NCBI RefSeq assembly: GCF_000364445.2
Contig: NZ_CP043538.1
Coordinates: 6,033,447 to 6,097,446, forward strand
DNA: 64,000 nucleotides
From: Methylobacterium mesophilicum SR1.6/6
GTDB lineage: Bacteria; Pseudomonadota; Alphaproteobacteria; Rhizobiales; Beijerinckiaceae
Reading direction: 5' to 3'
This document shows, piece by piece, positions 10,108-53,196 of the stretch (within the stretch, counting starts at the first letter, position 1; each line of letters starts with the position of its first letter). A program made the position numbers and the translations under genes. The notes beneath the pieces were generated by a model that was not told the origin of the DNA, ran no database searches, and worked only from the letters and a program-made list of their open reading frames with translations.

Positions 10108-10542
<435 letters not shown>

Positions 10543-20625: not shown

Positions 20626-20704
20626 GATACTTCAGTGACTTAGCTCTCGTTTTCACTCATCACGCTTACCAGAGCATTCGTTGGGTAAGCGTATAGTAAG
20701 CATC

Positions 20705-32051: not shown

Positions 32052-32321
32052 TCAGCATCCCTGCATCAGCTGAGGCACGTCCCGGTGCTGCTGCACCAGG
32101 CGCGTCGCGGGCCGCTCGACCGAGAGCTCAGTCGCGTTGTCGAGGACGAGGACGGTGACGTCGCGGACGCCGGCGTCGCGGCACATGCGGATCAGGTCGT
32201 CCTGCCACTTCGCGGCCGTCTCCAGCTGCAGCTTCTGGCGGGTGCGCAGCACCAGGATGTCGCCGTGCCGGACTTCGAGGCGGTCCAGCTGGCGGTCGAT
32301 CTCTTGGGCCAAGGTGCTCAC
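32052..32321 (-). CDS. Small phage protein coupled to the recombinase
   Basis: 89 residues from a GTG inside the recombinase stop (GTGA). Contains ILVLRTRQKLQLETAAKW, then DVTVLVLDNATEL: an alpha/beta arrangement typical of small Methylobacterium phage proteins of unknown role. The overlap explains the non-ATG start. Confidence 0.5.
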   Translation of the reverse strand: MSTLAQEIDRQLDRLEVRHGDILVLRTRQKLQLETAAKWQDDLIRMCRDAGVRDVTVLVLDNATELSVERPATRLVQQHRDVPQLMQGC

Positions 32322-35837: not shown

Positions 35838-36785
35838 TCAAGCTGTCCTTTGGGTCGGCGGCGTCCAATCTCGCAGGTCGATCTTCCGGACCGGCGAGGC
35901 CCGCAGCGGTGCCGCACGACGACCAGCCACTCGGCGATCCCTCTCGACGTGACGGCGCGGGCGCAGGTTCGGCAGCGGTGCTCGCTCTTCTTCCTCCGGC
36001 TCCAGCCACGGCGCGATCGGCGCCTTGGGCGGCAGAACCTCGATGCTAGTCAGGAACTGCAGCGCCGGCACGAGGTAGACGAGTGCCGCGTGCCAGTAGG
36101 CGTAGCGCAGCTGCTCCTCGAGGACCTCGACGCCAGTACGGGTGTAGTTCAGTTTGCAGAACAGGCCGGTGTCACGGCTGTCGCCCTTCACGGTCGCGAC
36201 TTCGTCGTGGCCGGTGAACCACTGTTTGCCGTCCGGGCCTTCGCCGCAGGTCGTGTGCACGGTCCGCCAGATGGCGACCTTGTTGTTCTTGGCCATCACC
36301 GGCTCGACCTCGATGCCGCCGGCGATCTCAGGAGGCCTGCGGATCGCGCCGGTCACGAGCCAGGAGGGCGTGGCGTCCATCGCGGCGGAGCTCATCACCT
36401 CAAGGCTGGCCTTGCCGCGCAGCGCGACCTGGATGGGATAGGGCGAGAGATCGAGCGGGCAGACCGCGGATCCGACGGCCGCCCGCTTCAGCGTCTCGCT
36501 GAGCACCTGGAGGTGCGCCTCGATCGTTATGGCGTCCGGGTGAGGATCGCCCATGGCCGGCGGCATGCCCGGCTCACGGGACCAGTTGTCGACCGGGCCG
36601 CCCATCGCGACCATGCGCCAGACCGGGTCCGACGCGCACTGCGGCCCGCGGATCGGGGCGTCCTGGCGGCGCTTCGGCAGTTCGTCGCGGATCGCCCAGC
36701 GCAGGGCGTCCTCAATCGTCATCTTACGGCGCTTCGGTGCGCTCTGGGTGGTGCTCTGCGTCGATGCCGGCACGGTGGTCCCCAA
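35838..36785 (-). CDS. Conserved-looking phage protein, unknown
   Basis: 315 residues. Pieces worth noting: an early helical block (MTIEDALRWAIRDELPKRRQ), a central CPLDLSPYPIQVALRGKASL, the cysteine-bearing TVHTTCGEGPDGKQWFTGHD, and a basic Arg-rich tail. The size and operon position between a DUF6362-like gene and small genes fit a middle-phase DNA-metabolism protein. I do not recognise the family. Confidence 0.55.
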   Translation of the reverse strand: MGTTVPASTQSTTQSAPKRRKMTIEDALRWAIRDELPKRRQDAPIRGPQCASDPVWRMVAMGGPVDNWSREPGMPPAMGDPHPDAITIEAHLQVLSETLKRAAVGSAVCPLDLSPYPIQVALRGKASLEVMSSAAMDATPSWLVTGAIRRPPEIAGGIEVEPVMAKNNKVAIWRTVHTTCGEGPDGKQWFTGHDEVATVKGDSRDTGLFCKLNYTRTGVEVLEEQLRYAYWHAALVYLVPALQFLTSIEVLPPKAPIAPWLEPEEEERAPLPNLRPRRHVERDRRVAGRRAAPLRASPVRKIDLRDWTPPTQRTA

Positions 36786-36854: not shown

Positions 36855-37229
36855 TCAATTCTTCTCAGTTAGGCTGCGCACGATCGCCGCGTTGATCCCA
36901 TCAGCGATCTGTTCGGCGGCTTCGTCACGAAGCCGGTAGATCGTCGCCGCCGAACCCCAGCCGCGTCCGCGGATGAACTCCTGAAAGCTTTCCTTCGCGG
37001 CCCGGCATCTGGCCCAGGCCAGCAGAATGTCCCGTTTGCGCGCCCAGAGCGGGTCGAGGATGTCGAGGTAGTCGTTCGGCCACATGACGGGCCGGATCTC
37101 CGCTGGACCGCGCACGCGCGGATCCGTGTGCATCGACCGCTTCATCCAGAGCAACACGTCTCCGCTCGTCCAGCTGGGTGTGTGGCCGAGGGCGGGGTGG
37201 AGCGGCGGGCCTTCCTGGCGAAGCGGCAT
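36855..37229 (-). CDS. DUF6362-like phage protein
   Basis: Up to 124 residues; the true start is probably internal (MKRSMHTD or MWPNDYLD), since the first 30 residues overlap the dispersed repeat. The core WPNDYLDILDPLWARKRDIL, then ARCRAAKESF, then RGWGSAATIYRLRDEA, follows the pattern of DUF6362 (W-P, W-x-x-L-L-x-W-A-R, C-R, G-W-x-x-x-T-x-x-R-R). This family sits just upstream of terminase in related prophages. It is the last phage gene before the cargo island. Confidence 0.45.
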   Translation of the reverse strand: MPLRQEGPPLHPALGHTPSWTSGDVLLWMKRSMHTDPRVRGPAEIRPVMWPNDYLDILDPLWARKRDILLAWARCRAAKESFQEFIRGRGWGSAATIYRLRDEAAEQIADGINAAIVRSLTEKN

Positions 37230-37280
37230 CGATCGCGGAGACGCGGCCCAAACTGCCGCACTCAGTTCCTACCATGTTCC
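37205..37280 (+). repeat. Dispersed repeat copy 1 (left edge of cargo island)
   Basis: Shares with four other copies the string ccttcctggcg..gcggcatcgatcgcgg, then gcggcccaa, then ttcctaccatgttcc. It is the most diverged copy. The 419 bp from 37230 to the PAS gene contain only this repeat and no gene I can support. Confidence 0.6.
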
Positions 37281-37648
37281 AGGCGGGCTGACCGTTGCCG
37301 GGATGCCGCCGGGTAGAGGGTTTGAAGCAAGCCTCCAGCGAGGTGGCTTCAGCGCCGCGAGAGATCCGTAACTAACCTCGCCCCACAGATTAATGGCACG
37401 CCGGGGCCGCTTGCGACCTGAGGCGGACATGCTGATGATCGTCAGGGCTTCCCGAAGGCGGTCACACGCCGGCCGTTGGCGTGGGCGCCTGAGCTCTGAC
37501 CTGAGCTCTGATTGGCTATGAAAGTCGCGATACCACCCGGGCGATTTGCGAAGCGTCGCGCCTGCGTTGAGATCAGCGCGCATTCTGCTCAACGGCTATG
37601 CGTGCGATGGATGTAATACGGCTAGCACGGCTGTAGCGTTATGGCGTC

Positions 37649-38128
37649 ATGACAGCCCTCGAACTCATCCGCGCCCTGGCACAAGATGCCGATATCGGCG
37701 TCCTCGTCACTGACGCGGTGGTCGACGCTCCCGGTCCGACCATCCTCTACGCCAATTCCGCCTTCGGGCGCCTAGTTGGTCGCGATCTGCCCGACGTCAT
37801 CGGCCGCAGCCCGCGCTTCATGCAGGGCAGAGACACACGTCGCGCGACGCTCGATGCCTTTCACCGCGCCCTGGCGTCGGGTGAGCGCTTCCATGGCTAT
37901 CTGACCAATTACCGCGCCGACGGTGCCAAGTATCGCGCCGAGATCGATTGCCGGCCCCTGCGCGCGGCCGACGGGCGCATCGAGAACTTCGTCTCGTTCG
38001 AGCGCGAGGTGCTCCGCCGGATCGGTCGTCCCGCCGTCAACGGCGCTGGCCGCTACGAGCCCGCCATTGTAAGCAAGACTCTATTAACAGGGTCGTTCCG
38101 CGCGCTCGCCGTATTCGAGCACGCATGA
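37649..38128 (+). CDS. Orphan PAS (LOV-like) protein without the photoactive Cys
   Basis: 159 residues forming essentially one PAS domain (residues 10-125): DIGVLVTDAVVDAPGPTILY, A-N-S-A-F, GRDLPDVIGRSPRFMQGRDT, then FHGYLTNYRADGAKYRAEID. The arrangement, especially R-F-M-Q-G with the D-T-R-R helix and N-Y-R-x-D-G, is that of LOV domains. But the G-x-N-C-R-F-L-Q signature is GRSPRFMQ here, so the flavin-adduct Cys is replaced. No output domain is present. It may be a redox or non-photochemical flavin sensor that acts on the neighbouring chemoreceptor. Confidence 0.75.
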   Translation: MTALELIRALAQDADIGVLVTDAVVDAPGPTILYANSAFGRLVGRDLPDVIGRSPRFMQGRDTRRATLDAFHRALASGERFHGYLTNYRADGAKYRAEIDCRPLRAADGRIENFVSFEREVLRRIGRPAVNGAGRYEPAIVSKTLLTGSFRALAVFEHA

Positions 38129-38361
38129 GCCCTATCGATAGCCGCTGAGAACTTGGTAATAGCAGTGTCTGAAATGTAACCTGCGTTACATTCGTGATTT
38201 TAGATGCGGCTTCGTGCTGTGATTAAGCAGCAAGTAACGCTTATCGCGCAGCGTGAGATCAAGAGCTTCTGTGGCAACGCGGCCCGCAGGCGTAATGCCT
38301 TTCGGTCGTGTAAGCTCGATCCGTCGTCCAGCGATCTCAGCGCGTCCGAGAGAGAAAAGCC

Positions 38362-39846
38362 ATGTTGGGTGGGACGGGAAAGCATGCCGACACCGCGGCC
38401 AAGTTCGAGGCGCTGGAGCGATCGCAGGCCATTGTCGAGTTCCTGACCGACGGCACCATCCTTACCGCCAACGCCAACTTCCTGACCGCGATGGGCTACA
38501 CCCTGCCCGAGGTGCGGGGGCAGAACCACGCAATGCTCGTCGAGGCGGAGCAGCGCGCCAGCGCCGAGTACCGCGCCTTCTGGGACGCTCTGCGGCAAGG
38601 CACGTTTCAAACCGCCGAGTTCAAGCGCGTCGCCAAAGGCGGGCGGACCGTGTGGCTTCAGGCGAGCTACAACCCGGTGCGCGATCGTGCCGGCCATGTC
38701 GTGAAACTGGTCATGTTCGCCACTGACGTCACCGCGCAGAAACTGCGGGCGCTGGACAGCGACGGCCAGATCGCAGCCCTGCACCGCTCGCAGGCGGTGA
38801 TCGCCTTCGATCCGACCGGCACGATCCTCGACGCCAACCAGAACTTCCTCGGCGCCGTCGGCTACCGCCTCGACGAGATCCGCGGCCGGCATCACAGCCT
38901 GTTCGTGGACGGCGCTGAACAGGCTGGTGCGGAGTATCGTGGGTTCTGGGCCGATCTCGCGCGGGGTCAGTTCGCGGCCGGCGAGTTCCGGCGCATCGCC
39001 CGGGGCGGCCGCGAGGTCTGGATCCAGGCCACCTACAACCCCATCACCGACGCGGACGGAAGGGTGTTCAAGGTGGTGAAGTTCGCCGCCGACATCACCG
39101 CGCAAGTGCACGAGCGCCAGCGCCGGGTCGATGCGCAACGATCGATCGGCGCCGATCTCGACGCGATCGGTACCGCGGTCGAGGATGTCACACGGCAGAC
39201 GGCCGAGGCCGTCGGCACGGTGGGCCAAGTCTCGAACGACATCCAGTCTGTGGCCTCGGGCGCGGAGGAGCTGTCGGCCTCGGTCGGCGAGATCAGTCAG
39301 CAGGTCAGTCACGCCGCGCGCATGGCCGGCGAGGCCGTGGAACAGGCCCGGCACACGAGCAGCATCGTCGAAGGCCTGAGCGGGCAGGCGGCGCAGATCG
39401 GCGAAGTGGTGACGATGATCCAGGGGATCGCCTCTCAAACCAATCTGCTGGCGCTCAATGCCACCATCGAGGCGGCCCGCGCGGGCGCCGCCGGCAAGGG
39501 TTTCGCGGTGGTGGCTTCCGAGGTGAAGGCCCTGGCCGAGCAGACGGCCAAAGCGACGGACCAGATCCGGGTGCAAATCACGGCGACGCAGGGGGCCACG
39601 CGCGAGGCTGTCGGCGCGATCGGCTCGATCCAGGGCACGATCCGAGCGCTGGACGAGGTCTCGGCCGCGATCGCGGCGGCGGTCGAGGAGCAGTCGGCCG
39701 TCACGCGCGAGATGTCGGGCAGCATGCACACGGCCGCGCACGGGGTGGCGACGATCGCCGGCGGTATGGAGGCGATCGCCAGGGCGAGCGAGCAGGTCGA
39801 TGTCGCGACGCGCCAAGTTCGCGAAGCGGCCCGCGCGGTCGGTTGA
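38362..39846 (+). CDS. Soluble methyl-accepting chemotaxis protein with two PAS domains
   Basis: 494 residues, no transmembrane helices. Two tandem PAS/PAC units (about 20-130 and 140-252) share the same strings: [20 protein letters not shown] versus [20 protein letters not shown], each ending A-T-D-V-T-A-Q or A-A-D-I-T-A-Q. The C-terminal signalling domain has the conserved hairpin [20 protein letters not shown], then [16 protein letters not shown]. This layout is that of cytoplasmic, Aer-like energy or oxygen sensors that drive CheA. It follows the orphan PAS gene and precedes an HD-GYP gene on the same strand. Confidence 0.92.
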
Positions 39847-39915
39847 GCACACGCCGACACTATCGGACTGGGACTATCGCAAGGGGGCTCGCGGGGAGAC
39901 GATCACGTTCGCGCC

Positions 39916-40980
39916 ATGAGTGAGTTACTGCTGATCAGCGACGACCTGAGCCGAACGGAGCGGCTCGCCCGTCATCTCGGCGCCTTCCGGGCCTGCCGCA
40001 TCCACGACCTCTACGACGACGCGCCGCCGCCGAGAGCCGAACTGATCGTCAGCGACGTGAAGGATCTCACGTCCGAGGCGATCCTGCGCCTGCGCGGCGT
40101 GCTCCCCCACGTCCGCGGCTCCGGCACGCCCTTTCTCTTCCTGTTGCACGACAACTCGGCCCGCACGCACATCCAAGCCGATCTGCTCGGCGCGTCAGGG
40201 ACCTTGAGCGCCGCGGCCGCCATGCGTCTGCTCGATGAGGCGCTGGCCTGCCTGCAGGAGCAAACCGAGGCTACGCCGTCGAAGACGAGGCGGCAGGCCG
40301 ATCAAGCGCGGCAGTTCCTGCGCGAGACGTTCGTGCCCGGCCGGGATCTGTCCTCGGCGATCATCGACACCGGCACAGAGATCGTGTCGGGAGCGGTGCG
40401 CGAGAGCGGGATCCGGAATTGGATCCGTGCGGTCCGGCGCTTCGACGACGCCACGCACCAGCACTGCCTGCTCGTCGCTGGCCTCGCCGTCGCGTTCGCC
40501 GGGTCACTGGGCCTGGGCGCGCCGGACCGCCACAGCTTGGCGAAAGCCGCGCTGCTCCACGACGTCGGCAAGATCGCCGTCCCGCCCGCGATCCTGAACA
40601 AGCCCGGTCCTTTGAATGCGGCCGAGATGCGGATCATGCGGACGCATCCCGGCTACAGCCACGCGATGCTCGTCGGCCGGGGCTTCGAGGAAACGATGCT
40701 GACGGTGGTGCGCTCTCACCATGAGATGCTCGACGGCACCGGCTACCCGGATCGTCTCAAAGGCTGCGAGATCCCCGACCTCGTACGGTTGGTCACGGTC
40801 TGCGACGTCTACGGTGCGCTGATCGAGCGCCGTCCCTACCGCGCTCCGCTGGCCGGCGCGAAGGCCTTCAGTATCCTAAGCGGCATGACAGATCGTCTCG
40901 ACGGCGACCTCGTGCGGGCGTTCCAGCCGGTGGCGACGGCCTACGATCCATCGCTGCCCCCAGCGACGTTGCCGAGCTGA
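39916..40980 (+). CDS. HD-GYP cyclic-di-GMP phosphodiesterase with degenerate receiver
   Basis: 354 residues. The first 120 residues look like a receiver domain (MSELLLISDDLSRTERLARH, then AELIVSDVKDL, then GTPFLFLLHDNSA), but the acidic pocket is incomplete. The HD-GYP domain is intact: LLHDVGKIAVPPAILNKPG, MRTHPGYSHAML, and SHHEMLDGTGYPDRLKG with the GYP triad. It should hydrolyse c-di-GMP to GMP. It lies 70 bp after the chemoreceptor, so they are probably co-expressed. Confidence 0.88.
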   Translation: MSELLLISDDLSRTERLARHLGAFRACRIHDLYDDAPPPRAELIVSDVKDLTSEAILRLRGVLPHVRGSGTPFLFLLHDNSARTHIQADLLGASGTLSAAAAMRLLDEALACLQEQTEATPSKTRRQADQARQFLRETFVPGRDLSSAIIDTGTEIVSGAVRESGIRNWIRAVRRFDDATHQHCLLVAGLAVAFAGSLGLGAPDRHSLAKAALLHDVGKIAVPPAILNKPGPLNAAEMRIMRTHPGYSHAMLVGRGFEETMLTVVRSHHEMLDGTGYPDRLKGCEIPDLVRLVTVCDVYGALIERRPYRAPLAGAKAFSILSGMTDRLDGDLVRAFQPVATAYDPSLPPATLPS

Positions 40981-41085
40981 CGGCGCGCCGAGAAGATCCG
41001 TACCGCGGCTTGGACTGGAGCTACGGATGTTCGTTCAGAAGCCTCAGCTGCTCTGGAGCGGACCGACTGAAATTGCTCACTGCGA

Positions 41086-41190
41086 ACTCCAGCACAGGGC
41101 TCACGAATAGGATCGAGTCCTTCTGCTCGGACGAGCATCGGACGCGGTGGCGCGGCCCAATGCGCCACTTGTTGTTCCCAGCAAGTTCCA
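41086..41190 (+). repeat. Dispersed repeat copy 2
   Basis: agggctcacgaataggatcg..tccttctgctcggacgagcatcg..gcggtggcgcggcccaatgcgccac..gttcccagcaagttcc. It contains a perfect hairpin GTGGCGC/GCGCCAC (41147-41168) and the palindrome TGCTCG-GA-CGAGCA. It lies between the HD-GYP and the MHYT genes; the 497-bp gap has no gene apart from it. Confidence 0.7.
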
Positions 41191-41477
41191 AGGAGGTCTG
41201 CCGTCGCTCCGCGGCCACGTTGATCGAGGCAGTCACCTCCGATCGGGCGAGTCGTGGGGCCCGACCGACTGCGAAGCAAATGTCATGACGCTTATGCTGT
41301 GTGATCTTCTCCACCTGCTTAGCGCCGCTCGTCAGCGGTGAACTGGCATTTTATAGACTAACATATGCTGCTTTACCCCGATCACTGGGCCTTCGTTTGT
41401 CCATTGGCAGACATTAAAACGCTTCTTTGGCTTATATTAACGCCCGTTGCTTCTATTGGGACGGAAGCGAGGCCGAT

Positions 41478-43838
41478 ATGCATACGATATTAACATGCAT
41501 TACAGAGCGTCACGATGAAGCATTATTGTTCCTTGCGGCTTCCGTCTGCGCCATCGGCATCTACGCGGCCTCCGCCATAGCGGCACATGCAGCTCGTTCT
41601 GAGGGCTCGGTACGGCGCAAATGGGCGGTCGCCAGCATCGTCGCTTCCGGATGTACGGCCTGGGCGACACATATGATTGCCCTCCTCGCCTTCAGACCTG
41701 GCATGGACGCCGGTTTCGAACCCACCCTCACGGCGCTCTCCCTCCTGATCGTAGTCGCTGGCATCGGTGCAGGGGTCGGCCTTGTCATCGGCCGACGCAG
41801 CCGGACACGTCGCGCCGCTGCCGGCGCGATCCTGGGTCTCGGAGTCACGGGGCTCCACTATGTCGGACAGGTGTCCTACCGCGTAACCGGGTACGCCACA
41901 TGGAACATGGACCTCGTGATTGGATCCATCGTCATCAGCCTCGCCCTGTCATCTCTAGCGATGATCGTCGCCGGCGAACGCAGCCGCATGTTGCGCCACT
42001 GCGCTGTGGCACTTCTGCTCGGCTCGATCGTGATCCTGCACCTCGGCGGCATGACCGCGCTGGTCCTGACCTACGATCCACAGGTTACGCTGCCGAACTC
42101 CGCTATATCGCCATCGACCATCGCGCCGATCATCGCGGCTGTCTCGTTGGGCCTCCTGGTCTTGGCGTTCGTCGGCCTACGCATGACCCTCAATGCGAAG
42201 GCCCAACTCCGCCGGGATCGCGAGAGATTGCGCGAACTGGCCAGCCTCGCCCTGGAAGGGCTCGCGGTTTGCGACGCGGCCGTGATCACGACCGCCAACC
42301 GGAGCCTTGAGCAGCTCTCGGGTATGACACAGGCGGACCTGATCGGTTGCAGCATCGCGCGCCTTTTGCCAGGCCTCGTTCTTGACGACCTCCCGGAGCA
42401 AGTTGAACGCGACGCTGAACTCGTCGGTGCAGACGGCGAGGGCGTGCCAGTCCGAGTCCTACGCAAGGAAATCTCCCTCGGCCACAAGCGTCAGACGGTC
42501 ATCGCCTTCCGCGATCAACGGGAGCGCCTCCAATCCGAAGCTCGCCTGCGCACCCTCGCGTTCACCGACGCCGTGACAGGCCTGTCGAACCGCGCTCGGT
42601 TCGACGATCTTCTGGTCCATCATATCGCGGCTCTGCGTGAGCAGGACGGTGGTCTCGCGGTGTTGATGCTGGATCTCGATCGCTTCAAGACCGTCAACGA
42701 TACGCTTGGCCATGCCATGGGGGATGAGCTACTGCGCAAGGTCTCCGCGCGTCTGCAGGGCATCATCGGCGAAGGAAACGTTCTCGCGCGCCTAGGCGGC
42801 GATGAATTTGGCGTCCTGCTCATGCGTGTCGCGGATGACCAGGAGCCGCAAAGCGTCGCAGCGCGCATCGTGGAGACGATCAACCGTGTCTTTCTGCTCG
42901 ATACCCACCTCGTCCATGTGGGCGTGAGCGTTGGCATCGCGCTCGCATTGACCAGTGAAAGCAGGTTGGAGGATCTGCTGCGGAACGCCGACCTCGCCTT
43001 GTACAAGGCCAAGGCGGCGGGAAGGGCGACCTTCCGGGTGTTCGAGCCGGCGATGGCCGAGCGGATCCAGGTTCGCAGCCGGATGGAAGTCGATATGCGC
43101 CGCGCTCTCAGCGACGGTGAGTTCGAACTGCACTTCCAGCCCCTCGTCGACGTGCAGACCGGGTTTGTGACTGCGGCGGAAGCGCTGATCCGCTGGCGTC
43201 ATCCTAAGAATGGACTAATCCCCCCGGCGGACTTCATCCCGCTCGCCGAGGAAACCGGGCTCATCATGCAGATGGGGGCTTGGGTGCTGCACGCAGCATG
43301 CTCGCAAGCTGTTTCATGGCCCCAAGCGATCAAAATCGCCGTCAACCTCTCGCCGGTGCAATTTCGCGACGACAAGCTTCCGGAGACCGTCCTTGCCGTC
43401 CTGAAGGCGACAGGTTTGGAGGCCGAAAGGCTCGAACTCGAGATTACGGAGGGTGTCCTCCTCGACGACGAGGAACGTACCCTCGGGATGCTGACACGGC
43501 TCAGGTCGATCGGCGTCGGTCTCGCGATGGACGATTTTGGAACGGGATACTCATCACTCAGCTATCTGCGCCGCTTTCCCTTCTCCAAAATCAAGATCGA
43601 CCGTTCTTTCGTTCGCATGCTGCCAGGCGATGCCGAAAGTGCAGCAATCGTCCGGGCTATCATCACCATGGGCGCGGGCCTAGGCATGTCGACGACGGTG
43701 GAGGGCGTGGAGACGGCCGAGCAGTACGCATTTGTCGCTGCGGAACACTGCGGCCAAGTTCAAGGCTATCACGTTAGCCGGCCGCTACCCGCCGCGGCAT
43801 TCCAGCTGTTCTTGAACGAGATGAAGCAGGCAGCCTGA
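41478..43838 (+). CDS. MHYT-PAS-GGDEF-EAL cyclic-di-GMP protein
   Basis: 786 residues. An N-terminal MHYT sensor with about seven membrane helices comes first (motif variants THMIAL, LHYVGQ, LHLGGM, the His/Met residues proposed to bind metal or diatomic gas). A PAS-like segment (about 250-360) follows, then GGDEF with LARLGGDEFGVLL, then EAL with AEALIRWRHP, NLSPVQFRD, LELEITEG and MDDFGTGYSSLSYLRR. Both catalytic motifs look intact, so either activity is possible. The ATG at 41478 begins just before the first helix. Confidence 0.9.
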   Translation: MHTILTCITERHDEALLFLAASVCAIGIYAASAIAAHAARSEGSVRRKWAVASIVASGCTAWATHMIALLAFRPGMDAGFEPTLTALSLLIVVAGIGAGVGLVIGRRSRTRRAAAGAILGLGVTGLHYVGQVSYRVTGYATWNMDLVIGSIVISLALSSLAMIVAGERSRMLRHCAVALLLGSIVILHLGGMTALVLTYDPQVTLPNSAISPSTIAPIIAAVSLGLLVLAFVGLRMTLNAKAQLRRDRERLRELASLALEGLAVCDAAVITTANRSLEQLSGMTQADLIGCSIARLLPGLVLDDLPEQVERDAELVGADGEGVPVRVLRKEISLGHKRQTVIAFRDQRERLQSEARLRTLAFTDAVTGLSNRARFDDLLVHHIAALREQDGGLAVLMLDLDRFKTVNDTLGHAMGDELLRKVSARLQGIIGEGNVLARLGGDEFGVLLMRVADDQEPQSVAARIVETINRVFLLDTHLVHVGVSVGIALALTSESRLEDLLRNADLALYKAKAAGRATFRVFEPAMAERIQVRSRMEVDMRRALSDGEFELHFQPLVDVQTGFVTAAEALIRWRHPKNGLIPPADFIPLAEETGLIMQMGAWVLHAACSQAVSWPQAIKIAVNLSPVQFRDDKLPETVLAVLKATGLEAERLELEITEGVLLDDEERTLGMLTRLRSIGVGLAMDDFGTGYSSLSYLRRFPFSKIKIDRSFVRMLPGDAESAAIVRAIITMGAGLGMSTTVEGVETAEQYAFVAAEHCGQVQGYHVSRPLPAAAFQLFLNEMKQAA

Positions 43839-43911
43839 AGCGCTCTCAGAATAGCTCACTGCATCGAAGTTTGGATCAAGCACTCGACACAATGCCGGTG
43901 AGGGCCACGAT

Positions 43912-43962
43912 ATCGAAAGTGGCGCGGCCCAAAGCGCCATTTGTCGTTCCTAGCAAGTTCTG
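43912..43962 (+). repeat. Dispersed repeat copy 3 (partial)
   Basis: Only the right half is recognisable: atatcgaaagtggcgcggcccaaagcgccatttgtcgttcctagcaagttctgg, with the hairpin GGCGC/GCGCC retained. It lies in the 456-bp gene-free gap before the first methyltransferase. The rest of that gap is AT-rich and without recognisable signals. Confidence 0.65.
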
Positions 43963-44294
43963 GACGACGTGACCCTTGCAGGTGAGCTTCCGGAGGTTGG
44001 GTTCAAGGCTGCCTCGGCTGCACTGGCCGCGGAGCGGCATGTGTGAACGTATCTGCGTTCGATAGGAACAAGAAAATCTTGGTTCTTGCTCCTGAAGCGG
44101 ATAAGACGTCTCGGGATCATTGCGGTTATTGCGCATCAATCCTGAATTGACGCCGATGCAGGTTGCTTAGTCATAAACGTCTGCAGCCGTCCCATTGTCG
44201 CTGCATGTGACTGAATTCTGAATTACAAACGGCTTGCCGAATGACGCTCTTCATGTGACTTACGGCTAAAGCTGTGGTGAGTCGAGCATGGTTC

Positions 44295-45248
44295 ATGGAC
44301 GAATTAGCGCATCATAGTTTGGGCAAAACCAATAATTTCGAATTAATTACACTTCTTGACGAAGTGTACGATGCAATAAATGGATTAGATGGCAATCGAC
44401 TTTATTTACTACTTGATAAGATGAATGATTTTAGACCAAGCCTTGAAAGCAATAAAGATATCTCCGACATACAAGATATTGTCAGAGCGCACAAATCATT
44501 TGCGCTGCTAATGCAAGACCCGTATTCATATCACGCCTTCAACAAGCCGCGTGGTTTTCCCGGCGATGCATCGCTAATCGACTTGTTCTATGGCCACGGA
44601 GCTGGCCGCCAGACAATCACTGAACAAGGCCGCTTCATTTTCGAAACATTTATGCGATCGCCCAGTTGTGATGCTATCCGCTTCCGAAGAGGGTACTACG
44701 GAGCATTCCTAGATCGGATCGCTTCTGAGCGGAGTGGGCGTGCGCAGGCTCTGGCGCTTGCCTGCGGGCATTTGCGAGAAGCGTTGTTCTCTCGTGCGGT
44801 TACCGAGGATACAATCAGAATTGTTGGCGCGGACAGTGACGTGTTAGCTGTTAATGAGGCAACAAGGTCACTGATTGGCAGAAATGTGGAAATCCGGCAC
44901 AGATCAATTATAGATTTCATACGCAATAGATCATGGCGTGAGACTTATGATTTCATATATGCGGCAGGTCTTTTCGATTATCTCGATGATCGCGTTGCCA
45001 GAAAGGTCATCTCCGTAGCTTTTGAAGCTCTTAATCCCGGGGGATCGATATCATTCGCGAATTTCCTTCCGAGCATCAGGGAAAGGGGCTACATGGATAT
45101 CGTCATGGATTGGAGGCTAATATATCGGACAAAGAATGATATGTTAGCACTTACATCTAAGCTTCCTCAGGAAAGCATAGCGAGCATCGACGTCTGGATC
45201 GATCCGCTAGATACGGTGGTCTATCTCACGGCGACAAAGCGCGGCTGA
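44295..45248 (+). CDS. PhcB-like SAM-dependent methyltransferase (copy 1)
   Basis: 317 residues (an upstream GTG at 44274 is also possible). A helical N-terminal region is followed by YSYHAFNKPRGFPGDASLID, which is the signature of the family annotated as extracellular factor 3-hydroxypalmitic acid methyl ester biosynthesis proteins (PhcB type). The methyltransferase core has LALACGHLREAL, VGADSDVLAVNEA, and YAAGLFDYLDDRVARKVISV, then NPGGSISFANFLP and MDWRLIYR. In Ralstonia such an enzyme makes the volatile quorum signal; the substrate here is not known. Base composition is AT-rich compared with neighbours. A close paralog follows. Confidence 0.75.
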   Translation: MDELAHHSLGKTNNFELITLLDEVYDAINGLDGNRLYLLLDKMNDFRPSLESNKDISDIQDIVRAHKSFALLMQDPYSYHAFNKPRGFPGDASLIDLFYGHGAGRQTITEQGRFIFETFMRSPSCDAIRFRRGYYGAFLDRIASERSGRAQALALACGHLREALFSRAVTEDTIRIVGADSDVLAVNEATRSLIGRNVEIRHRSIIDFIRNRSWRETYDFIYAAGLFDYLDDRVARKVISVAFEALNPGGSISFANFLPSIRERGYMDIVMDWRLIYRTKNDMLALTSKLPQESIASIDVWIDPLDTVVYLTATKRG

Positions 45249-45594
45249 CTGGAGAATATGCAAGCCTCGCAGACTGCTTTCACTCAGATTTGATTGTAGG
45301 CTGACGGTTCGTTGACGGCCGAGAGGCTGACCTGCTCAGAGCCTATTATTGGCCGGGGCGGATTTTGACGCTGCGATCGAGACCTGATCTTTCGCCATCA
45401 ATTGAGTTCTGGTGCGGAAGACCGGCAGGGCTTCGCAATAAGCCACAGTCAATCTTACAGCAAATGGCACTTTTGCCCGTCAAAAAGGCCAATTCGGCTA
45501 ATCCTCCGCAGGCAAATTAACCATGCTTTCGAATATGGGTTGGTATCCCGACAGCAACCATTGTGGTTAACAAAACCTTTATGATACCCACTAT

Positions 45595-45621
45595 CCGAGG
45601 TTAACAAGCGTTAACCTTCGG
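45595..45621 (+). promoter_or_regulatory. GGTTAAC palindrome in front of the second methyltransferase
   Basis: CCGAGGTTAAC-aag-C-GTTAACCTTCGG is an inverted repeat with a single A bulge that ends where the SD (cggagcgggat) begins, 9 bases before the ATG. A further GGTTAAC occurs at about 45565. It could be a repressor operator or an RNA hairpin controlling translation. The rest of the 381-bp gap between the two methyltransferases (45249-45629) is AT-rich and shows no gene. Confidence 0.5.
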
Positions 45622-45629
45622 AGCGGGAT

Positions 45630-46538
45630 ATGGATCGCTTGAAGAGCATTCTGAATGAGGCTCATACAAGCCTGTCGACCGAGCCGAGGCTCGCAGCCAT
45701 AGATTGGCTCGCGACAGAACTCGGGACATCGTTCGATGAGGCGATCGCTGATGGATGTCTCAAGACTTTCCAATCATCCTGCCTCGACCATCCGCTGTCA
45801 GAACTTCTGTTGACGGATCCATATTCGCGGCGCGCATTCGAGAAGCCGCGTGGTTATGCCGGCGACGCCGTAATGTTGGATTATATCTATAGGCCGGCTC
45901 GATCGTCGCTGGACGGCTTAGCAGGGTTGATACATGAGGCGACGACAACGTTGCCTAATGCAAAAAGCATCTTATGGCGCAGGGACTATCTGGCCACTCT
46001 TTTAGGAAGCCTTATGCGTTCTCGCGAAATCGCAGAGGTTCTGTCGGTAGCCTCAGGCCACATGCGGGAACTCGACCGATTGAGAGAGATAACTTCTGAT
46101 ACAAACATCATATTTACAGCGCTCGACCAAGATTTATCTTCAATTTCAGAAGCTCGAGCGACATACAAGGAATATAATATCTTCGGAGAAAACAAGAATT
46201 TTACCTCCCTTCTGAAAGGTCGATCAATTCACAAAAATTACGACCTCGTGTATTCTGCTGGGCTATTTGATTATCTCCAAGATACGACGGCAGTCGCGCT
46301 CATGAAAGCGATGTTCAGTCGGCTCAAGCCGGGGGGTGTGCTTTCGGTTGCGAATTTCACTCGAGACAGTCATGGTCGCGGGTTTATGGCCGGTTTCATG
46401 GATTGGTGCTTGATCTATCGCAACGAGCAAGACCTGCAAACACTTGCTGATGCCGCTTTCCCAAAGGCTTCATATAGGATCTTCCGCGATCAGCCACGCA
46501 ACGTCGTTTATTTAGAGGTGTTTGCAGATCGCAATTAG
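45630..46538 (+). CDS. PhcB-like SAM-dependent methyltransferase (copy 2)
   Basis: 302 residues, paralogous to the gene upstream: YSRRAFEKPRGYAGDAVMLD versus the first copy, LSVASGHMRELD, DLVYSAGLFDYLQDTTAV, LKPGGVLSVANFT and FMDWCLIYRNEQDL. The shared blocks lie in the same order and spacing, but identity between the copies is modest, so they diverged before being placed in tandem or were acquired separately. A likely role is methyl ester formation on a 3-hydroxy fatty acid or similar signal. The ATG follows GGAG. Confidence 0.78.
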   Translation: MDRLKSILNEAHTSLSTEPRLAAIDWLATELGTSFDEAIADGCLKTFQSSCLDHPLSELLLTDPYSRRAFEKPRGYAGDAVMLDYIYRPARSSLDGLAGLIHEATTTLPNAKSILWRRDYLATLLGSLMRSREIAEVLSVASGHMRELDRLREITSDTNIIFTALDQDLSSISEARATYKEYNIFGENKNFTSLLKGRSIHKNYDLVYSAGLFDYLQDTTAVALMKAMFSRLKPGGVLSVANFTRDSHGRGFMAGFMDWCLIYRNEQDLQTLADAAFPKASYRIFRDQPRNVVYLEVFADRN

Positions 46539-46653
46539 CGGCAGCTATACGCTGCGTCATAGGCAACTGACGATACGTGCCCGGCGGTGGTCAGCGCCCT
46601 GCACGTCGAGGTCGACGCTGTGGCGAGGTAAATGTTCAGGTACGTCGCGATGA

Positions 46654-47583
46654 TCACTTCCCCACGTTCATCATCGGCATCGTGGCGCCCGGCACCATCG
46701 TGGTCGGCAACTTGCCGTCCCAGCGCTCGGCCTGCGTGAGCGCGACCAGGCCCGGGTTCGAACCGAGCGCCTCGGCTCGGGCCCGGATTGCACTGGCCTC
46801 CGCGTCGCCCCGGAGTTTGGTCGCGTCAGCCTCGGCCTGCGCACGCTGGCGGATCGCGTTCGCTTCCGCACCGGCCTTGGTGCCGACGATCTCGGCCTGG
46901 ACCTTCTCGCGCAGCGCGTTCTGCTTGAGCCGGTCGACCTCGACGGAGGCTTGCATCCGCTGCTCGATCGAACGCATGTACTCCGGCGAGAACTGGATGT
47001 CCTCGATCTGCACGGCCTCGATCACGATCGGCGCGTTCATACCGCCGATCGCCTCGTGGATGGCGCCGGCCATCTGGGCGTTGAGGCGCACGCGCTCCTG
47101 GACGGCTGTGACCGCATCGAACTGGCCGAACACGTTCTTGGACTGCTCCAGCACCTTGGGCTCGACCACGCGGTCCTCAAGGTTCGCGGTCGATGTGAAC
47201 CGACTGTAGACCTCGGACACCCGATCGGTCGGGACGTGGTAGAGCACGGACAGCTTCATCACCGCTGGCTGCTGGTCGCGGGAGTAGGCCTCCATCTTGT
47301 CGAACTCGACCCGATGGGACTCGACGCTGATCGACACGGCCGACTGCACGAACGGCAGTTTCCAGTGCAGGCCTGGGTCGGCCTCACCAACTACTGCGCC
47401 GTTGGTGAGCAGCACCACGCGCTTGCGCTGGTCGACCGTGTAGAACGAGCCTCCGACGACGGAGAGGGCGACGAGGCCTGCGATGCCGATGAGGCCCAGC
47501 CTGACGTAGTTCACCTTCTTTGCTCCCTTCTGCGCAGGACCGCGATCACCCATCTGTCGTTCCAGTTGTGTGCCCTTGGCCAT
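46654..47583 (-). CDS. SPFH/prohibitin-family membrane protein
   Basis: 309 residues. One N-terminal transmembrane helix (VRLGLIGIAGLVALSVVGGS) is followed by the SPFH domain (YTVDQRKRVVLLTNGAVVGE, DPGLHWKLPFVQSAVSISVE). A long Ala/Glu/Arg coiled coil (QRAQAEADATKLRGDAEASA) and a Met/Pro-rich end follow. It resembles HflK/HflC-type or prohibitin proteins that scaffold membrane proteases. Whether it is a phage moron or a cargo gene is unknown. Confidence 0.85.
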   Translation of the reverse strand: MAKGTQLERQMGDRGPAQKGAKKVNYVRLGLIGIAGLVALSVVGGSFYTVDQRKRVVLLTNGAVVGEADPGLHWKLPFVQSAVSISVESHRVEFDKMEAYSRDQQPAVMKLSVLYHVPTDRVSEVYSRFTSTANLEDRVVEPKVLEQSKNVFGQFDAVTAVQERVRLNAQMAGAIHEAIGGMNAPIVIEAVQIEDIQFSPEYMRSIEQRMQASVEVDRLKQNALREKVQAEIVGTKAGAEANAIRQRAQAEADATKLRGDAEASAIRARAEALGSNPGLVALTQAERWDGKLPTTMVPGATMPMMNVGK

Positions 47584-47732
47584 CGCCCCTCATCGCATCC
47601 GCACGACGCTGTCGTCCGCGTCTACTGTATAGCGCGACTGGCGGCATTCGATGTCGTTTGAGGGCCCAACCGCGCGGCGCCTAGATTGCGATGCACGGCA
47701 TCGCCCGGAACGCCGTTATCAGCCGGCGCCCG

Positions 47733-47846
47733 ACGTCGGCGCAGGACGCGGGCTCACGAAAGGGCTCGAGACCTTCTGGGCGGACGAGCATCAATCGCGG
47801 TGGAGCAGCCGAAAGCGCCGCCTGTCGTTCCTCGCATGTTCTTGGA
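47733..47846 (+). repeat. Dispersed repeat copy 4
   Basis: cgacgtcggcgcaggacgcgggctcacg, then ctcgagaccttctgggcggacgagcatcaatcgcggtgg, then gaaagcgccgcctgtcgttcctcgcatgttcttgg. Nearly full length and, with copy 5, sharing the extended left end cgacgtc-gcgcagg. The surrounding 429-bp gap (47584-48012) has no other feature. Confidence 0.7.
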
Positions 47847-48012
47847 TCAAGCGCGGTTGCCAGGATACCGCTCATGCGCGTTCAGTGTTGCCGCACGGCT
47901 CAATCGAAGCTCGAACACAATGCCAGAATAATCGCTGCAGCACGCGTCGATTGAGACAAGAAGATGGATACTTGAAGCTCGATCTGCATCATTTTGGGCA
48001 TCGCAAGTTGGA

Positions 48013-48657
48013 TCAGGAGCACGCCTTGCCATTGGGTAAAACGATTTCATTGTAGGTGGATTTTACCGCTTGACCGCCGCGGGTCGGCCATGGGACGCTG
48101 GCTTTGAATGTGAACTGGTTATTGGCGCCACCCACAAGCCGCATAATATTGCTTCCGAATAAAGCTGGATACGGCACGCTCACTTCGGCCAAGACGTAGC
48201 GCATTCCGGCAAGTTGAAAGCCTTCCGGCACCTTCAAATCGGCTGCCGTGCCGACAGCTCGTGCTGTGCCATTGCCCGTCGCGTAACTGGAGCACACCCG
48301 CGGTAGCTGTCCTACACCGTCCGCTGCAACGCCGAGCGCGCTGATCACGATCTGAGCTGTGTTGTTCGGATAGGGCGTCAGAACAAGTTTGGCTGACGCG
48401 AAGATGTCGCTCAACGTCGCCGCTGCCATCGGTGTCTGCGTGTCTCCCTGGGATGCGATATCCGCTAAAGTACGCGCCAGAAGTGTTACCTTACGGTAGT
48501 GATCGAACGCGCGGCCAAATTCTGTGATGCCAAACAACAGCATCAGCATTATGGGCAAGATTAGCGCGAACTCGATGGCTGAGACACCGCGGGTGTCGTC
48601 ACACAGGTCGGACAAGCTGCGGATGCGACGGATCCCGTCGTGCATTGACCATTTCAT
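48013..48657 (-). CDS. TadE/TadG-like pilus assembly protein
   Basis: 214 residues. RGVSAIEFALILPIMLMLLF, then GITEFGRAFD, is the TadE-like signature: a pre-pilin-like glycine before a Glu-containing hydrophobic helix. The rest is beta-rich with one Cys and ends KACS. It is the last of three consecutive Tad-type genes. These minor pseudopilins assemble Flp/Tad pili, but no Tad ATPase, secretin or prepilin peptidase is encoded in the window. Confidence 0.78.
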   Translation of the reverse strand: MKWSMHDGIRRIRSLSDLCDDTRGVSAIEFALILPIMLMLLFGITEFGRAFDHYRKVTLLARTLADIASQGDTQTPMAAATLSDIFASAKLVLTPYPNNTAQIVISALGVAADGVGQLPRVCSSYATGNGTARAVGTAADLKVPEGFQLAGMRYVLAEVSVPYPALFGSNIMRLVGGANNQFTFKASVPWPTRGGQAVKSTYNEIVLPNGKACS

Positions 48658-48660
48658 GGG

Positions 48661-49284
48661 TCAGCAGCCCTGTCCCGAAGAGGTGTCATAGGGTTCGGTA
48701 CGAAAAACGGCCGTCGATTGAAGTAGACGCGCCCCATCACCGAAGCCGGGCAGGCCGGCATAGAGGAAGCTAAAAGCGACGCGGTATTTGACTGCGGCGG
48801 TGAAGACAACGATCGCTCCCGGCTGCGCGCAAGCGTAGCTGTTCCCGAAACCGGAGGACCAATCTTTCGTCATCGTATCGAGCGGTGTCGGCACGCTGCC
48901 AGCCGCGAAGGAAGTGCTCAACGCGATGTTGAGCTTGAGTGAACTGCAATCGAATGCCGTCGCGACCTGTGCAGTGTTGGTACCGCACATGGACGCTTTC
49001 ATTGCGGAGAGCAGTTTGCTGCTGTCCGTCTGGCCTGTATTCGCCTTCTGGAATTGACCCGTGTAGATCTTTCGGCCGGCGCGCTGGAGTGCATCGTCGA
49101 GGTTCCGCGCCGTCCAGACCAGCAGGGCGGTTTGCAGGATCACGGCAAGCAGACTCAGGAACGGTGTTGCGATCAGGGCAAACTCGACGGCGGCCGCACC
49201 ATCTTCCTTCCGGATGAGGTGGTTTGCTGCCAAACGCAATCGCGCTCGGATCGAGTGAAGCTGATTTCTGCAGCGGGACGGCAT
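48661..49284 (-). CDS. TadE-like minor pilin
   Basis: 207 residues with DGAAAVEFALIATPFLSLLA then VILQTALLVWTARNLDDALQ, the typical TadE N-terminal helix. An extracytoplasmic domain has Cys pairs (MCGTNTAQ, DCSSL, ACAQPG and a terminal Cys). Three bases separate it from the next gene, so they are coupled. Confidence 0.8.
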   Translation of the reverse strand: MPSRCRNQLHSIRARLRLAANHLIRKEDGAAAVEFALIATPFLSLLAVILQTALLVWTARNLDDALQRAGRKIYTGQFQKANTGQTDSSKLLSAMKASMCGTNTAQVATAFDCSSLKLNIALSTSFAAGSVPTPLDTMTKDWSSGFGNSYACAQPGAIVVFTAAVKYRVAFSFLYAGLPGFGDGARLLQSTAVFRTEPYDTSSGQGC

Positions 49285-49333
49285 TTACAGCCCCAGAATG
49301 ATACTGTTGATGAGATAAACGATCGAACTCGGA

Positions 49334-50425
49334 TTACTCAACAATCCTGAGCTTCTTATCAGCTACCTTGATCAAGGTCGGGCATGAGACGATAACGCGG
49401 ATGTCGTCGTAATCCCGATCACTGCCAGCGTTGGGTGGGCGGTCCTCCCAACCGTAATACATGTACTTGCCATCGCTGCAGCTTGCGGTCGACGTCGCTG
49501 GATCGTGGGTCGTGTGGCTGTTCGGCAGGATCCCACCGTCGGATTTGCTCTTACAGGCGCTGAGGCTATCGCAGACGATCGTCTCCAAGATCGGGTTCGA
49601 GACCATGTTCACAGTCGTCAGGCTGCCGTTCGTGTTAACGCGATAGCCCTTCATGCTCATTGACTGAACCCGCAGTCCGGTATCGATAGTCGTGTCAGTG
49701 TAGTATTCATAAGTTTCCTGGCTTGGATCGTTCCAGATTGATTTGTTGCTTCGGGCGTTGCGCACGTTGTGCAGCATGTAGCTCGGAGCCTCGTTGGCGC
49801 CGCAGGTGGGCAGAGCGGCCTTCGAGTAGTCGGTCGGAGGCGTGCCGTTGTCGGCGATCGCGACCAAGCCGCGTCGGCCCTTATCGGCTTCTGCCTGACG
49901 CTTGGGATCGGACGAATAGCAGTACATGTAGATGCGGTTGTAATCCGCTGCTTCGGGCGACAGCTGGCTGAAAGTCGGCGGACTGGTCTGGTAGACCGGC
50001 GCGACTCGGTTGACGGTGGTCGCGGTGCCGACGACGAGTTGTCGGGGCATACCCGGCAGGAGATGGAGCAAGTTCGTCTTGAGCGTCGTCGAGATCGTCA
50101 CCCGGTAGTTCGCGCCATCAATCCAGCTTCCATTCACCTGATACCCGCCGGTCGTGCCAGCGGTGCCCAAGCGAGAGGTGAGCTGAGCACTTGCGAGACG
50201 TAGCCCCTCGGTGGCTGCTGCGACTGTGTCCGCGTTGGCGACGAGCAGCGCGGTTGCATCGGCGATGCTGGACTCGACCGCCCGGATGCGCACGGCATTG
50301 CCGTAGTCGATAACGAGGCCGCCCGCGCCCAGGAGCAGCGGCAGGCTGAGCCCGAAGATCATCACGACGTTGCCGCTCTGATCATCAGCGAAGGGACGAA
50401 GCCGGCGCGACAGGCTTCCACGCAT
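49334..50425 (-). CDS. TadG-like pilus protein
   Basis: 363 residues from ATG 50425, which has GGGAG eight bases upstream; the longer frame to 50485 has none. Tad_N motif DQSGNVVMIFGLSLPLLLGA, then GLVIDYGNAVRIRAVESSIA, followed by a large exported domain (many Asp/Tyr, CGANEAPSYMLHNV, YYGWEDRPPNAGSDRDYDD), which is probably a surface or von Willebrand-like module. It heads the three-gene Tad set. Confidence 0.82.
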   Translation of the reverse strand: MRGSLSRRLRPFADDQSGNVVMIFGLSLPLLLGAGGLVIDYGNAVRIRAVESSIADATALLVANADTVAAATEGLRLASAQLTSRLGTAGTTGGYQVNGSWIDGANYRVTISTTLKTNLLHLLPGMPRQLVVGTATTVNRVAPVYQTSPPTFSQLSPEAADYNRIYMYCYSSDPKRQAEADKGRRGLVAIADNGTPPTDYSKAALPTCGANEAPSYMLHNVRNARSNKSIWNDPSQETYEYYTDTTIDTGLRVQSMSMKGYRVNTNGSLTTVNMVSNPILETIVCDSLSACKSKSDGGILPNSHTTHDPATSTASCSDGKYMYYGWEDRPPNAGSDRDYDDIRVIVSCPTLIKVADKKLRIVE

Positions 50426-50685
50426 GTGAGATCTCCCAACGCGCGTCCCACCATTCACCAGAGAGCGCAGACGGTGCGAGATCACGTTGGCGTTACAATA
50501 TTAATTCCAGGTTTTTGCCGTTATTTAGACGATCATATTTAAGCGTTAGGTGCGCTTCCCAGTTTTGGTATGGTTAATGAAAGCTAAATGTCGGTCTGCT
50601 GTCAGCTTATCTGGGTTCCTGCAATGCGGGCGGCATACGGCCTGACGTTCTTTGGAACTCTGAGGCCAAGACGTCAGCCCGCCCC

Positions 50686-50880
50686 CACCGCCGCCTGCCG
50701 CTTCGCTTGCGCCCCCGGCACGCCCAGTCCGATCGCGTTCGCGAACGCCGAGCGGGTGCGGCTTAGCCAGGAGCCGCCACGGGATCGCTGGCGGGCATGC
50801 CATAGCGTGTGCGATATGTGTCCGGCGTCAGGCGGTGCCCCACCAAAGCCGCCCAGGATCTTGTACGACCGGTCGGGTGC
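50686..50880 (-). pseudogene. Degraded copy of a MucR/Ros-type regulator gene
   Basis: The minus strand gives, with one frameshift and one in-frame TAA, GRSYK, then LTPDTYRTRYGMPASDPVAA, then RSAFANAIGLGVPGAQAKRQ. This matches the C-terminal half of the intact MucR-like protein encoded at 52753-53196 (LTPATYCERYGLPADYPMIA; IAKAIGLGVPGAHAKRQ). It lies next to dispersed repeat copy 5. The rest of the 762-bp gap (50486-51247) is gene-free. Confidence 0.75.
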
Positions 50881-50882
50881 TC

Positions 50883-50997
50883 GACGTCAGCGCAGGTCCA
50901 GGGCTCACGAGGGGGATCAGGACCTTCCTGGCGGAGCGGCATCGAACGCGGTGGCGCGGCCGAATGCGTCGCTCGACGTTCCTAGCATATTCTTGGG
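50883..50997 (+). repeat. Dispersed repeat copy 5
   Basis: cgacgtcagcgcaggtccagggctcacg, then ggaccttcctggcggagcggcatcg..cgcggtggcgcggcc, then gacgttcctagcatattcttggg. Full-length copy between the MucR pseudogene and the FkbM-type gene. Confidence 0.7.
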
Positions 50998-51247
50998 TCG
51001 ACCACCGCGTTTGCTAAGCCATATCTCGGCTATGCTTTCTCAACCAAGCTACTGGATCCCGATGCTGAAGCGGCGATCTCGTCGGTTATTGCATCGATGC
51101 TCTTCCACCTCCCGCTCAATTTAGGCGGATGTCTCCAATCTGGACGGTACGGGAGTCCCTTAGTATGACAGCGGTCGACCGCTATGCGCTGCTATCCTGC
51201 AAGTCCTCCAACGCTTGGCATGAGTAGACAATCCTAAGGATGTCCCT

Positions 51248-52752: not shown

Positions 52753-53196
52753 CTACTCCGTCGCCTGCCGCTTCGCGTGCGCACCCGGCACGCCCAGCCC
52801 GATCGCCTTCGCGATCTTCGACCGCTGCGCGGCGTAGCTCGGCGCGATCATCGGGTAGTCGGCCGGCAGGCCGTAGCGCTCGCAGTACGTCGCCGGCGTG
52901 AGCCCGTGGGCCGTGAGGTGGCGGCGGATCGTCTTGTACGACCGGCCGTCGATGAAGCTGACGATGCCGTCCTGCTGGACCGACTTGCGGATCTGGGCGG
53001 GCGTCGGGCGCTCGATCGCCGACTCGGGTGGGGTCGGCAGCGCGACCTTCTCAGCCGGCCCCTGCAGCGCCAGCAGCCCGTCGCGGACCGTGCGCATCAG
53101 CCCAGGTAGCGTTTCGGGTGCCACGGCCTGGCGGCCGACATAGGCCGCCACGATGCCGGCGGTGAGGTCGAGGATCGGGTCGAGGGTCTCAGGCAT
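52753..53196 (-). CDS. MucR/Ros-type transcriptional regulator
   Basis: 147 residues. The N-terminal half has LTAGIVAAYVGRQAVAPETL and LMRTVRDGLLAL. The DNA-binding half reads SVQQDGIVSFIDGRSYKTIR, RHLTAHGLTPATYCERYGLP, IAPSYAAQRSKIAKAIGLGV. In canonical Ros/MucR zinc fingers the position before F/L-E-D-G is Cys; here it is Ser (IVSFIDG), so zinc binding is doubtful, as in zinc-free Ros homologs. A good SD (AGGAGAGcatcc) fixes the ATG at 53196. It probably regulates prophage or surface genes. Confidence 0.85.
   Translation of the reverse strand: MPETLDPILDLTAGIVAAYVGRQAVAPETLPGLMRTVRDGLLALQGPAEKVALPTPPESAIERPTPAQIRKSVQQDGIVSFIDGRSYKTIRRHLTAHGLTPATYCERYGLPADYPMIAPSYAAQRSKIAKAIGLGVPGAHAKRQATE

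Follow-up and report, generated by a model that had tools for sequence, protein, structure and literature searches.

Direct repeats in one orientation separate the cargo of integron cassette arrays. In phages, a hotspot has been described as a small region, flanked by two conserved phage genes, whose content turns over fast (2022, PMC9122126), and short conserved boundary sequences have been described as recombination joints, as in phage LRRHood, where 29-bp direct repeats flank 1.35 kb (PMC3029335). Homology-driven mosaicism, through relaxed homologous recombination with defective prophages, was shown in E. coli phages (PMC3945230). The present analysis deals with a 64,000-nucleotide stretch of the Methylobacterium mesophilicum SR1.6/6 genome (assembly GCF_000364445.2, contig NZ_CP043538.1, positions 6,033,447 to 6,097,446; hereafter the window), in which five short repeat copies (c1 to c5) stand between groups of genes. 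As judged from sequence comparisons, the copies are no free-standing repeat element, being pieces of a small prophage gene, gene A, on the minus strand, and they are probably fossil starts of this gene that were left by homology-driven exchange and stacking of cargo between related prophages.

The five gene modules make up the cargo of one interval, 15.5 kb long in the window, which is bordered by a ROS/MucR-type regulator gene (family F11, here MucR) and gene A (F2/F75); relatives (loci given as L and a number) have the two in this order as well. What a preliminary description, made from the letters of the window, had called an island has turned out to be this interval, within a prophage whose ends can be recognised. 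Like the phage hotspot, the interval lies between two conserved phage genes, inside a prophage, and its fast-changing content differs between relatives (L159/L160, L067/L068) and includes some defence-like cargo; unlike in the hotspot, much of the cargo matches host signalling families (c-di-GMP, chemotaxis, quorum sensing, stress sigma), the interval of the window reaches the length given above, and decayed copies of a border gene are kept between the modules. With the boundary sequences of phages, the stretch shares its shortness and conservation, the non-homologous modules that flank it (in most but not all pairs, see below) and the presence of the same sequence on both sides of acquired DNA, whereas the boundary here is the leader of a gene, with several copies in one prophage that form an ordered fossil series. 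Same-orientation direct repeats between cargo are also what integron arrays possess, but here the repeat is the start of a gene, the modules are multi-gene and lie in both orientations, and the MucR border showed no matching site; instead of a gene-independent recombination site at each cassette border, every leader was found attached to gene A.

The copies as starts of gene A

The copies were found at 37.1–51.0 kb with nhmmer, and also as the direct-repeat families D1–D3, in one shared orientation and each between gene groups, as had been proposed (Table 1). On the minus strand, each presents a conserved leader beginning GAACATGCTAGGAACG or a close variant, and in four of the five this leader of about 50 nt runs directly into a start codon and the first codons of one protein, which reads MPLRQEGPPLHPALGHTPSWTSGDVLLWMKR at c1 and MLVR/MPLR..EG..P.REP at c2, c4 and c5; in c3 the leader is joined to an apparent internal piece of the protein. 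Thus read, c1 is the start of the intact gene A, and c2–c5 are decayed pieces of the gene. A search with a leader-only profile (39 sequences, namely the window and 38 loci, including two near-duplicates; cut-off E < 0.05) gave 25 matches, and all 25 were attached to a piece of gene A, 24 of them to its start region and that of c3 to an internal piece; at L053 11692 the start region is without a recognisable start codon. The earlier idea that the copies mark joints in the assembly of the locus was partly supported; the repeat is no element of its own, and the likely mechanism is mosaicism of phages at a short common sequence.

A search of the whole 6.56 Mb genome with c2 as the query retrieved c4, c5 and c3 at E values of 3e-16 to 2e-9 and an extra copy at 1.87 Mb (E 9e-4), with no other match at E < 0.01, and c1 was recovered when c5 was the query. 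Apart from this one, every clear copy in the genome belongs to the cluster of the window, in agreement with the earlier view that these are not random genome-wide repeats. An ordinary dispersed repeat, such as a miniature inverted-repeat transposable element or an insertion-sequence remnant with no tie to the cargo, would likewise be short, multi-copy and partly intergenic, yet it is extremely improbable given this single cluster and the attachment of all leader matches to gene A. The outlying copy (L062, G000:C1:1871614-1871697) is a solitary decayed gene A start distant from the prophage, none of its genes was grouped into a family common to the compared loci, and it is possibly the trace of another prophage. 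Among plasmid records, the repeat as the query gave three weak partial matches, none of which reached 80% coverage.

A 16-bp core has, with up to three mismatches, five sites in the window, which are exactly c1–c5, against 0.35 expected, and five sites were reached in none of 100 shuffles. The 15-mer that had been quoted as shared is exact in two copies only (41143 and 50947) and not in the other three; alone and with three mismatches it occurs 36 times against 26.2 expected, a number reached in 5 of 100 shuffles and therefore barely over chance. Nor did the supposed regular spacing hold, the start-to-start distances of 3909, 2772, 3881 and 3151 bp being determined by the length of the cargo.

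Over 20 leader copies, a spaced motif, TGGC-N6-GCMACGG-N12-GAACATGCTAGGAACG, is conserved, and in an alignment without c3 also GAAC-N7-GAAC. Internal hairpins had been noticed as well, and a leader hairpin of five pairs is formable in 95.8% of cells (19 copies, c3 excluded), but a two-sided change was seen in 0/5 pairs of the same copies, which gives no covariation support. Two other identities were considered and rejected: as an RNA family, with one chance-level Rfam match in 34–54 kb, away from the copies, and as a copy of the 3′ end of MucR, the leader-only profile having no credible match at the MucR–gene A junctions of loci in which gene A is leaderless.

Gene A occurs as two subtypes with 30–35% mutual identity. 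The c1 gene belongs to one subtype; by tblastn, c4 and c5 match the other, which c2 and c3 resemble by eye. A profile comparison of the subtypes used a profile that already contained three members of the second, so that its probability is not independent. Long stop-free matches to gene A of the window subtype (E < 1e-50) are present in 6 of 111 Methylobacterium genomes, one of the six being that of the window. Exact matches to the leader pattern, in searches from which the window's own records were possibly excluded, were found in six stretches of a species-level genome collection, all from Methylobacterium strains (J-048, J-030, E-066, J-070, E-005), and in one stretch of IMG/VR. Against annotated phage records, gene A and gene F3 had no match at E 0.01.

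Table 1. Coordinates of the repeat copies, the cargo and the prophage genes (positions in the window unless stated otherwise).
Feature	Position	Strand	Remarks
Intact gene A	36855..37229	-	124 aa; first gene of leftward phage operon; carries c1
Repeat copy c1	37142..37306	+	leader part 37231-37279 on minus strand
Repeat copy c2	41065..41214	+	leader and decayed gene A start
Repeat copy c3	43918..43987	+	leader joined to internal gene A piece (FDIVALTGIV, recognised by eye)
Repeat copy c4	47701..47868	+	leader and gene A codons 1-45, decayed
Repeat copy c5	50874..51019	+	leader and ~22 gene A codons
MucR fragment	50689..50846	-	codons 102-127 and 133-154; follows the gene A piece of c5
Cargo 1	37649..40980	+	PAS protein, PAS-MCP, HD-GYP-like HD_5 protein
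Cargo 2	41427..43838	+	MHYT-GGDEF-EAL protein
Cargo 3a	44274..46538	+	two related methyltransferase-like proteins; Pfam matches under cut-off
Cargo 3b	46654..47583	-	SPFH/Band 7 protein
Cargo 4	48013..50485	-	two TadE-like proteins and Tad-domain protein
Cargo 5	51248..52660	+	FkbM-domain protein
ROS/MucR-type regulator (F11)	52753..53196	-	right border of cargo interval; PF05443, E 1e-36
Gene F3	35838..36785	-	after gene A; phrog_9306, unknown function
Serine recombinase	32318..33172	-	conserved in prophage family; PF00239/PF07508; phrog_95
Minor tail protein	30794..31522	-	phrog_1924, E 2e-56
Terminase large subunit, GpA type	28381..29979	-	apparently shortened; PF05876/PF20454; phrog_15
Endolysin	23958..25013	-	phrog_181, E 4e-64
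attL	20581..20627	+	47-bp repeat overlapping 3′ part of tRNA-Val (20550-20625)
attR	genome 6112672-6112718 (window coordinate 79226-79272, outside window)		identical to attL; adjoins tyrosine-type integrase (PF00589)

Proposed exchange and stacking of the cargo

Related Methylobacterium prophages keep the same gene order: phage genes are followed by MucR, a first variable interval, gene A and gene F3, and then by another variable interval and more phage genes. In related loci the first of these intervals either lacks cargo or is filled with a different one, and copies stand beside cargo in such loci too. In L137, L138 and L139, gene A starts 18–19 bp past the MucR stop codon. Where an intact leader-bearing gene A and MucR are on the same stretch (the window, L051, L057, L058, L061, L067, L136, L159, L160), all nine pairs are 1.0–15.5 kb apart; with a leaderless gene A, six of seven are at most 0.26 kb apart. 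The distances were worked out by hand, some leaderless starts (L141, L142) being estimated; L055, L059, L060, L066 and L157 are excluded for having no MucR on the stretch, as are L140 and L143, which gave no MucR match, and L058/L068 and L063/L158 are each entered once.

Two IMG/VR prophages, L159 and L160, differ by a clean swap of the cargo that extends from the stop codon of MucR to the leader of gene A. Their MucR genes are 85% identical as far as the stop codon, after which there is no match over 3.2 and 6.7 kb (plus strand, E 1e-5), and from the leader edge on the two are 92% identical over 1578 bp. Across the cargo-bearing prophages, no common sequence was found after the MucR stop codon.

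The role of the leader was followed through pairwise, ungapped identities among 13 intact copies (78 pairs) and among 20 copies including fossils (190 pairs). Averaged over the 78 pairs, identity was 78% in the leader, with 34% for the adjoining 11 nt and 44% for the 40 nt on its upstream side and 63% for the following 60 nt (78, 33, 43 and 63% in an earlier calculation without the pair L058/L067). Fifteen of the 190 pairs have a leader identity of at least 88%; in 14 of them the 40 nt upstream are below 55%, and 7 are at 55% or less downstream, i.e., they belong to different gene A subtypes, with three pairs of 0.90 leader identity having only 0.47–0.52 downstream. In many pairs the similarity ends within a few nucleotides of one common place. 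The leader is therefore a short piece of common sequence with exchangeable modules on either side, but joints also fall elsewhere.

The common end point, together with the one direction of the five copies, could also be explained by a site-specific cassette system in which the leader is the target of a recombinase and cargo is inserted singly, as in an integron; a candidate would be the serine recombinase of the prophage, whose family (F10) has seven members including the window's (L058 and L068 have the same sequence here). This explanation is distinctly unlikely, as the MucR border carries no matching site and the post-stop sequences differ among cargo-bearing prophages, one swap joint (L067/L068) is far upstream of the leader, related upstream DNA is kept in 11 of the 190 pairs, and the gene A side is exchanged between subtypes as well.

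The reading as exchange and stacking is further suggested by two fusions, which with the L159/L160 swap are the kind of rearrangement junction that the preliminary description had called for. In c5, a gene A piece of about 22 codons precedes MucR codons 102–127 and 133–154, in order, and in L053, codons 1–42 of gene A precede MucR codons 98–123. Since MucR normally lies ahead of gene A, the order A′::MucR′ implies that one [MucR–cargo–A] unit was joined to the next. Arrays occur in other loci too, with an intact and a decayed copy in L051 and L055 and decayed copies only in L053 and L054. In the proposed route, the MucR-type gene would open the cargo interval and gene A would close it, in the order of transcription, and related temperate phages or prophages would trade cargo by recombination, with joints in or near the leader at one end of the cargo and at the stop codon of MucR at the opposite end. 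An unequal exchange would join gene A of one unit to MucR of another, so that both cargoes are retained and the old gene A, now internal, is free to decay; repeated rounds would lead to MucR-cargo5-A′::MucR′-cargo4-A′-cargo3-A′-cargo2-A′-cargo1-A. We infer the order of these events, homologous recombination as their enzymology and the path by which c2–c4 decayed.

The fusion in c5 is also what would remain if the DNA between gene A of one prophage and MucR of the next were lost, as in a series of prophages that had integrated in tandem at the tRNA and were then deleted down to their cargo, one gene A start being left for each lost prophage; the shortened terminase indicates that a deletion probably did happen in this prophage. 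Such a series is nonetheless unlikely, there being no intermediate att sites (a 28-base att pattern with up to two mismatches occurs at two places in the genome only) and relatives displaying direct swaps of cargo between matching flanks.

Several observations weigh against exchange and stacking through the leader. At least 60% identity is retained in the 40 nt upstream by 11 of the 190 pairs, one of which (the L051 fossil at 10116 paired with the live L159 copy) combines similar upstream DNA with different gene A subtypes; in L061/L136 (90% vs 82%) and L060/L061 (70% vs 68%) the upstream DNA is even kept better than the leader; and the L067/L068 joint is about 160 bp upstream of the leader edge. 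No MucR piece was found beside c2, c3 or c4. In L054 a decayed, leader-bearing gene A stands 68 bp behind MucR with no cargo in the gap, and in L158/L063 a leaderless gene A follows a degenerate MucR-like piece at a gap of 1.6 kb. Most relatives are draft contigs, and the joints are read from natural junctions in the compared sequences, with no excision or recombination seen directly.

The prophage and its cargo

The copies lie within a prophage of 58.7 kb, the ends of which are 47-bp repeats of tRNA-Val and which extends past the window. From gene A leftward, the phage operon comprises genes for the serine recombinase, the minor tail protein, the GpA-type terminase and the endolysin. The prophage may be defective, because the terminase is shortened (its relative in L055 has 700 aa) and few structural genes were identified. 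It also contains a DDE-type transposase fragment (PF13358, 57000-57641), a tRNA-Trp gene on the minus strand (60371-60443) and a gene for a substrate-binding-like protein (PF16868, phrog_6856; 58498-59385) that is retained in the early region of related prophages.

Some of the cargo has close relatives elsewhere. The SPFH gene of the window is 93% identical to cargo in the prophage L160 and the second methyltransferase-like gene 77% identical to cargo in L066, and the closest matches of the MCP and GGDEF-EAL genes among the compared loci are other Methylobacterium contigs, the MCP gene having matches on plasmids too (one of the searches behind these closest matches scored two candidates per genome). 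The Methylobacterium plasmid pNMS14P2 (L162) carries PAS, MCP and EAL genes, one with 82% DNA identity to the MCP gene of the window, which implies that genes of the cargo type also move on plasmids.

Cargo proteins of the related loci, from variable intervals or beside gene A fragments, were scanned as well, and 15 of 28 matched signalling or regulator families; the 28 were chosen by hand, so that the fraction has no background rate and is no test of enrichment. The families matched were GGDEF-EAL, HD-GYP-like, PilZ, MCP, BLUF, histidine kinase, LuxI, LuxR, NepR-sigma and LysR, with the NepR part and one of the two PilZ matches under Pfam's cut-off. Defence-like cargo was recognised by family matches only, AIPR/AbiU-like in L058 and IetA-like in L051, and a protein in L057 has a Pfam AbiU2 match and no PADLOC match. 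In L136 (10673-13384), a BLUF light sensor with a GGDEF-EAL protein lies between MucR and gene A, and in L160 (7182-7868) one cargo protein has a NepR-like stretch (under Pfam's cut-off) and ECF-like sigma factor domains. LuxR-type and LuxI-type genes occur within a prophage cargo region of a Methylobacterium sp. J-048 contig (L051:16191-17728; G086:C30), near PilZ-like and MHYT-GGDEF-EAL-family genes. In Phaeobacter, too, prophages have been described as carrying quorum-sensing genes (PMC13345283). In literature listings on Methylobacterium prophages with c-di-GMP or prophage-borne signalling cargo, no title or abstract opening was on this interval.

Possible functions of gene A and its leader

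The conservation of the spaced motif would be expected if the leader copies had been retained as phage-controlled promoters of the cargo. Two copies, c4 and c5, are indeed directed into the SPFH and Tad genes, and in c2 identity is higher in the leader (86%) than in the coding part (58%). On the other hand, c2 and c3 face the 3′ ends of cargo genes that run the other way, and in c4 and c5 the leader and coding parts decayed about equally (80% and 78%, and 86% and 82%, identity to the nearest intact copy), which makes an array of promoters a very unlikely reason for the presence of the copies.

The predicted fold of gene A has a weak likeness to the Q antiterminator of phage 21, with scores in the tool's "common" range, and is only tentatively called Q-like. 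Gene A has no Pfam or PHROG match, no Q was among the PDB sequence matches, and a search of a viral structure library ended without a match at E 0.001 or better; a relation to DUF6362 (PF19889) was rejected, only 1 of 32 members being matched, at E 0.17. The sequences of Q proteins from different phages vary greatly (PMC9371919), and gene A has no sequence match to the phage 21 Q and AlpA antiterminators (PMC6606751, PMC9371919). The site of 21Q is described there as lying between −35 and −10, whereas here the stretch between a −35-like motif and the leader is not conserved. The conserved GAAC-N7-GAAC of the leader would be the candidate for the direct-repeat binding site of a Q-type promoter. 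A remote extension of this model, to which we give little credence, is that gene A encodes a Q-like antiterminator of the phage 21 kind, with the leader as its promoter and protein loading site, so that blocks of cargo carry their own copy of a late switch and the prophage a whole series of switch sites; after induction, the intact gene A could then act on the fossil leaders and activate the captured chemotaxis, c-di-GMP and surface genes, altering the behaviour of the host during phage production.

Phage genomes are usually viewed as finished mosaics. With the copies probably being fossil starts of gene A, decayed border-gene copies persist here between successive blocks of cargo, so that a single genome displays joints of its assembly, and comparing strains can test the route of exchange proposed above. 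The cargo itself is unusual, and if this reading is true, phages would be carriers of behaviour-controlling genes in Methylobacterium.

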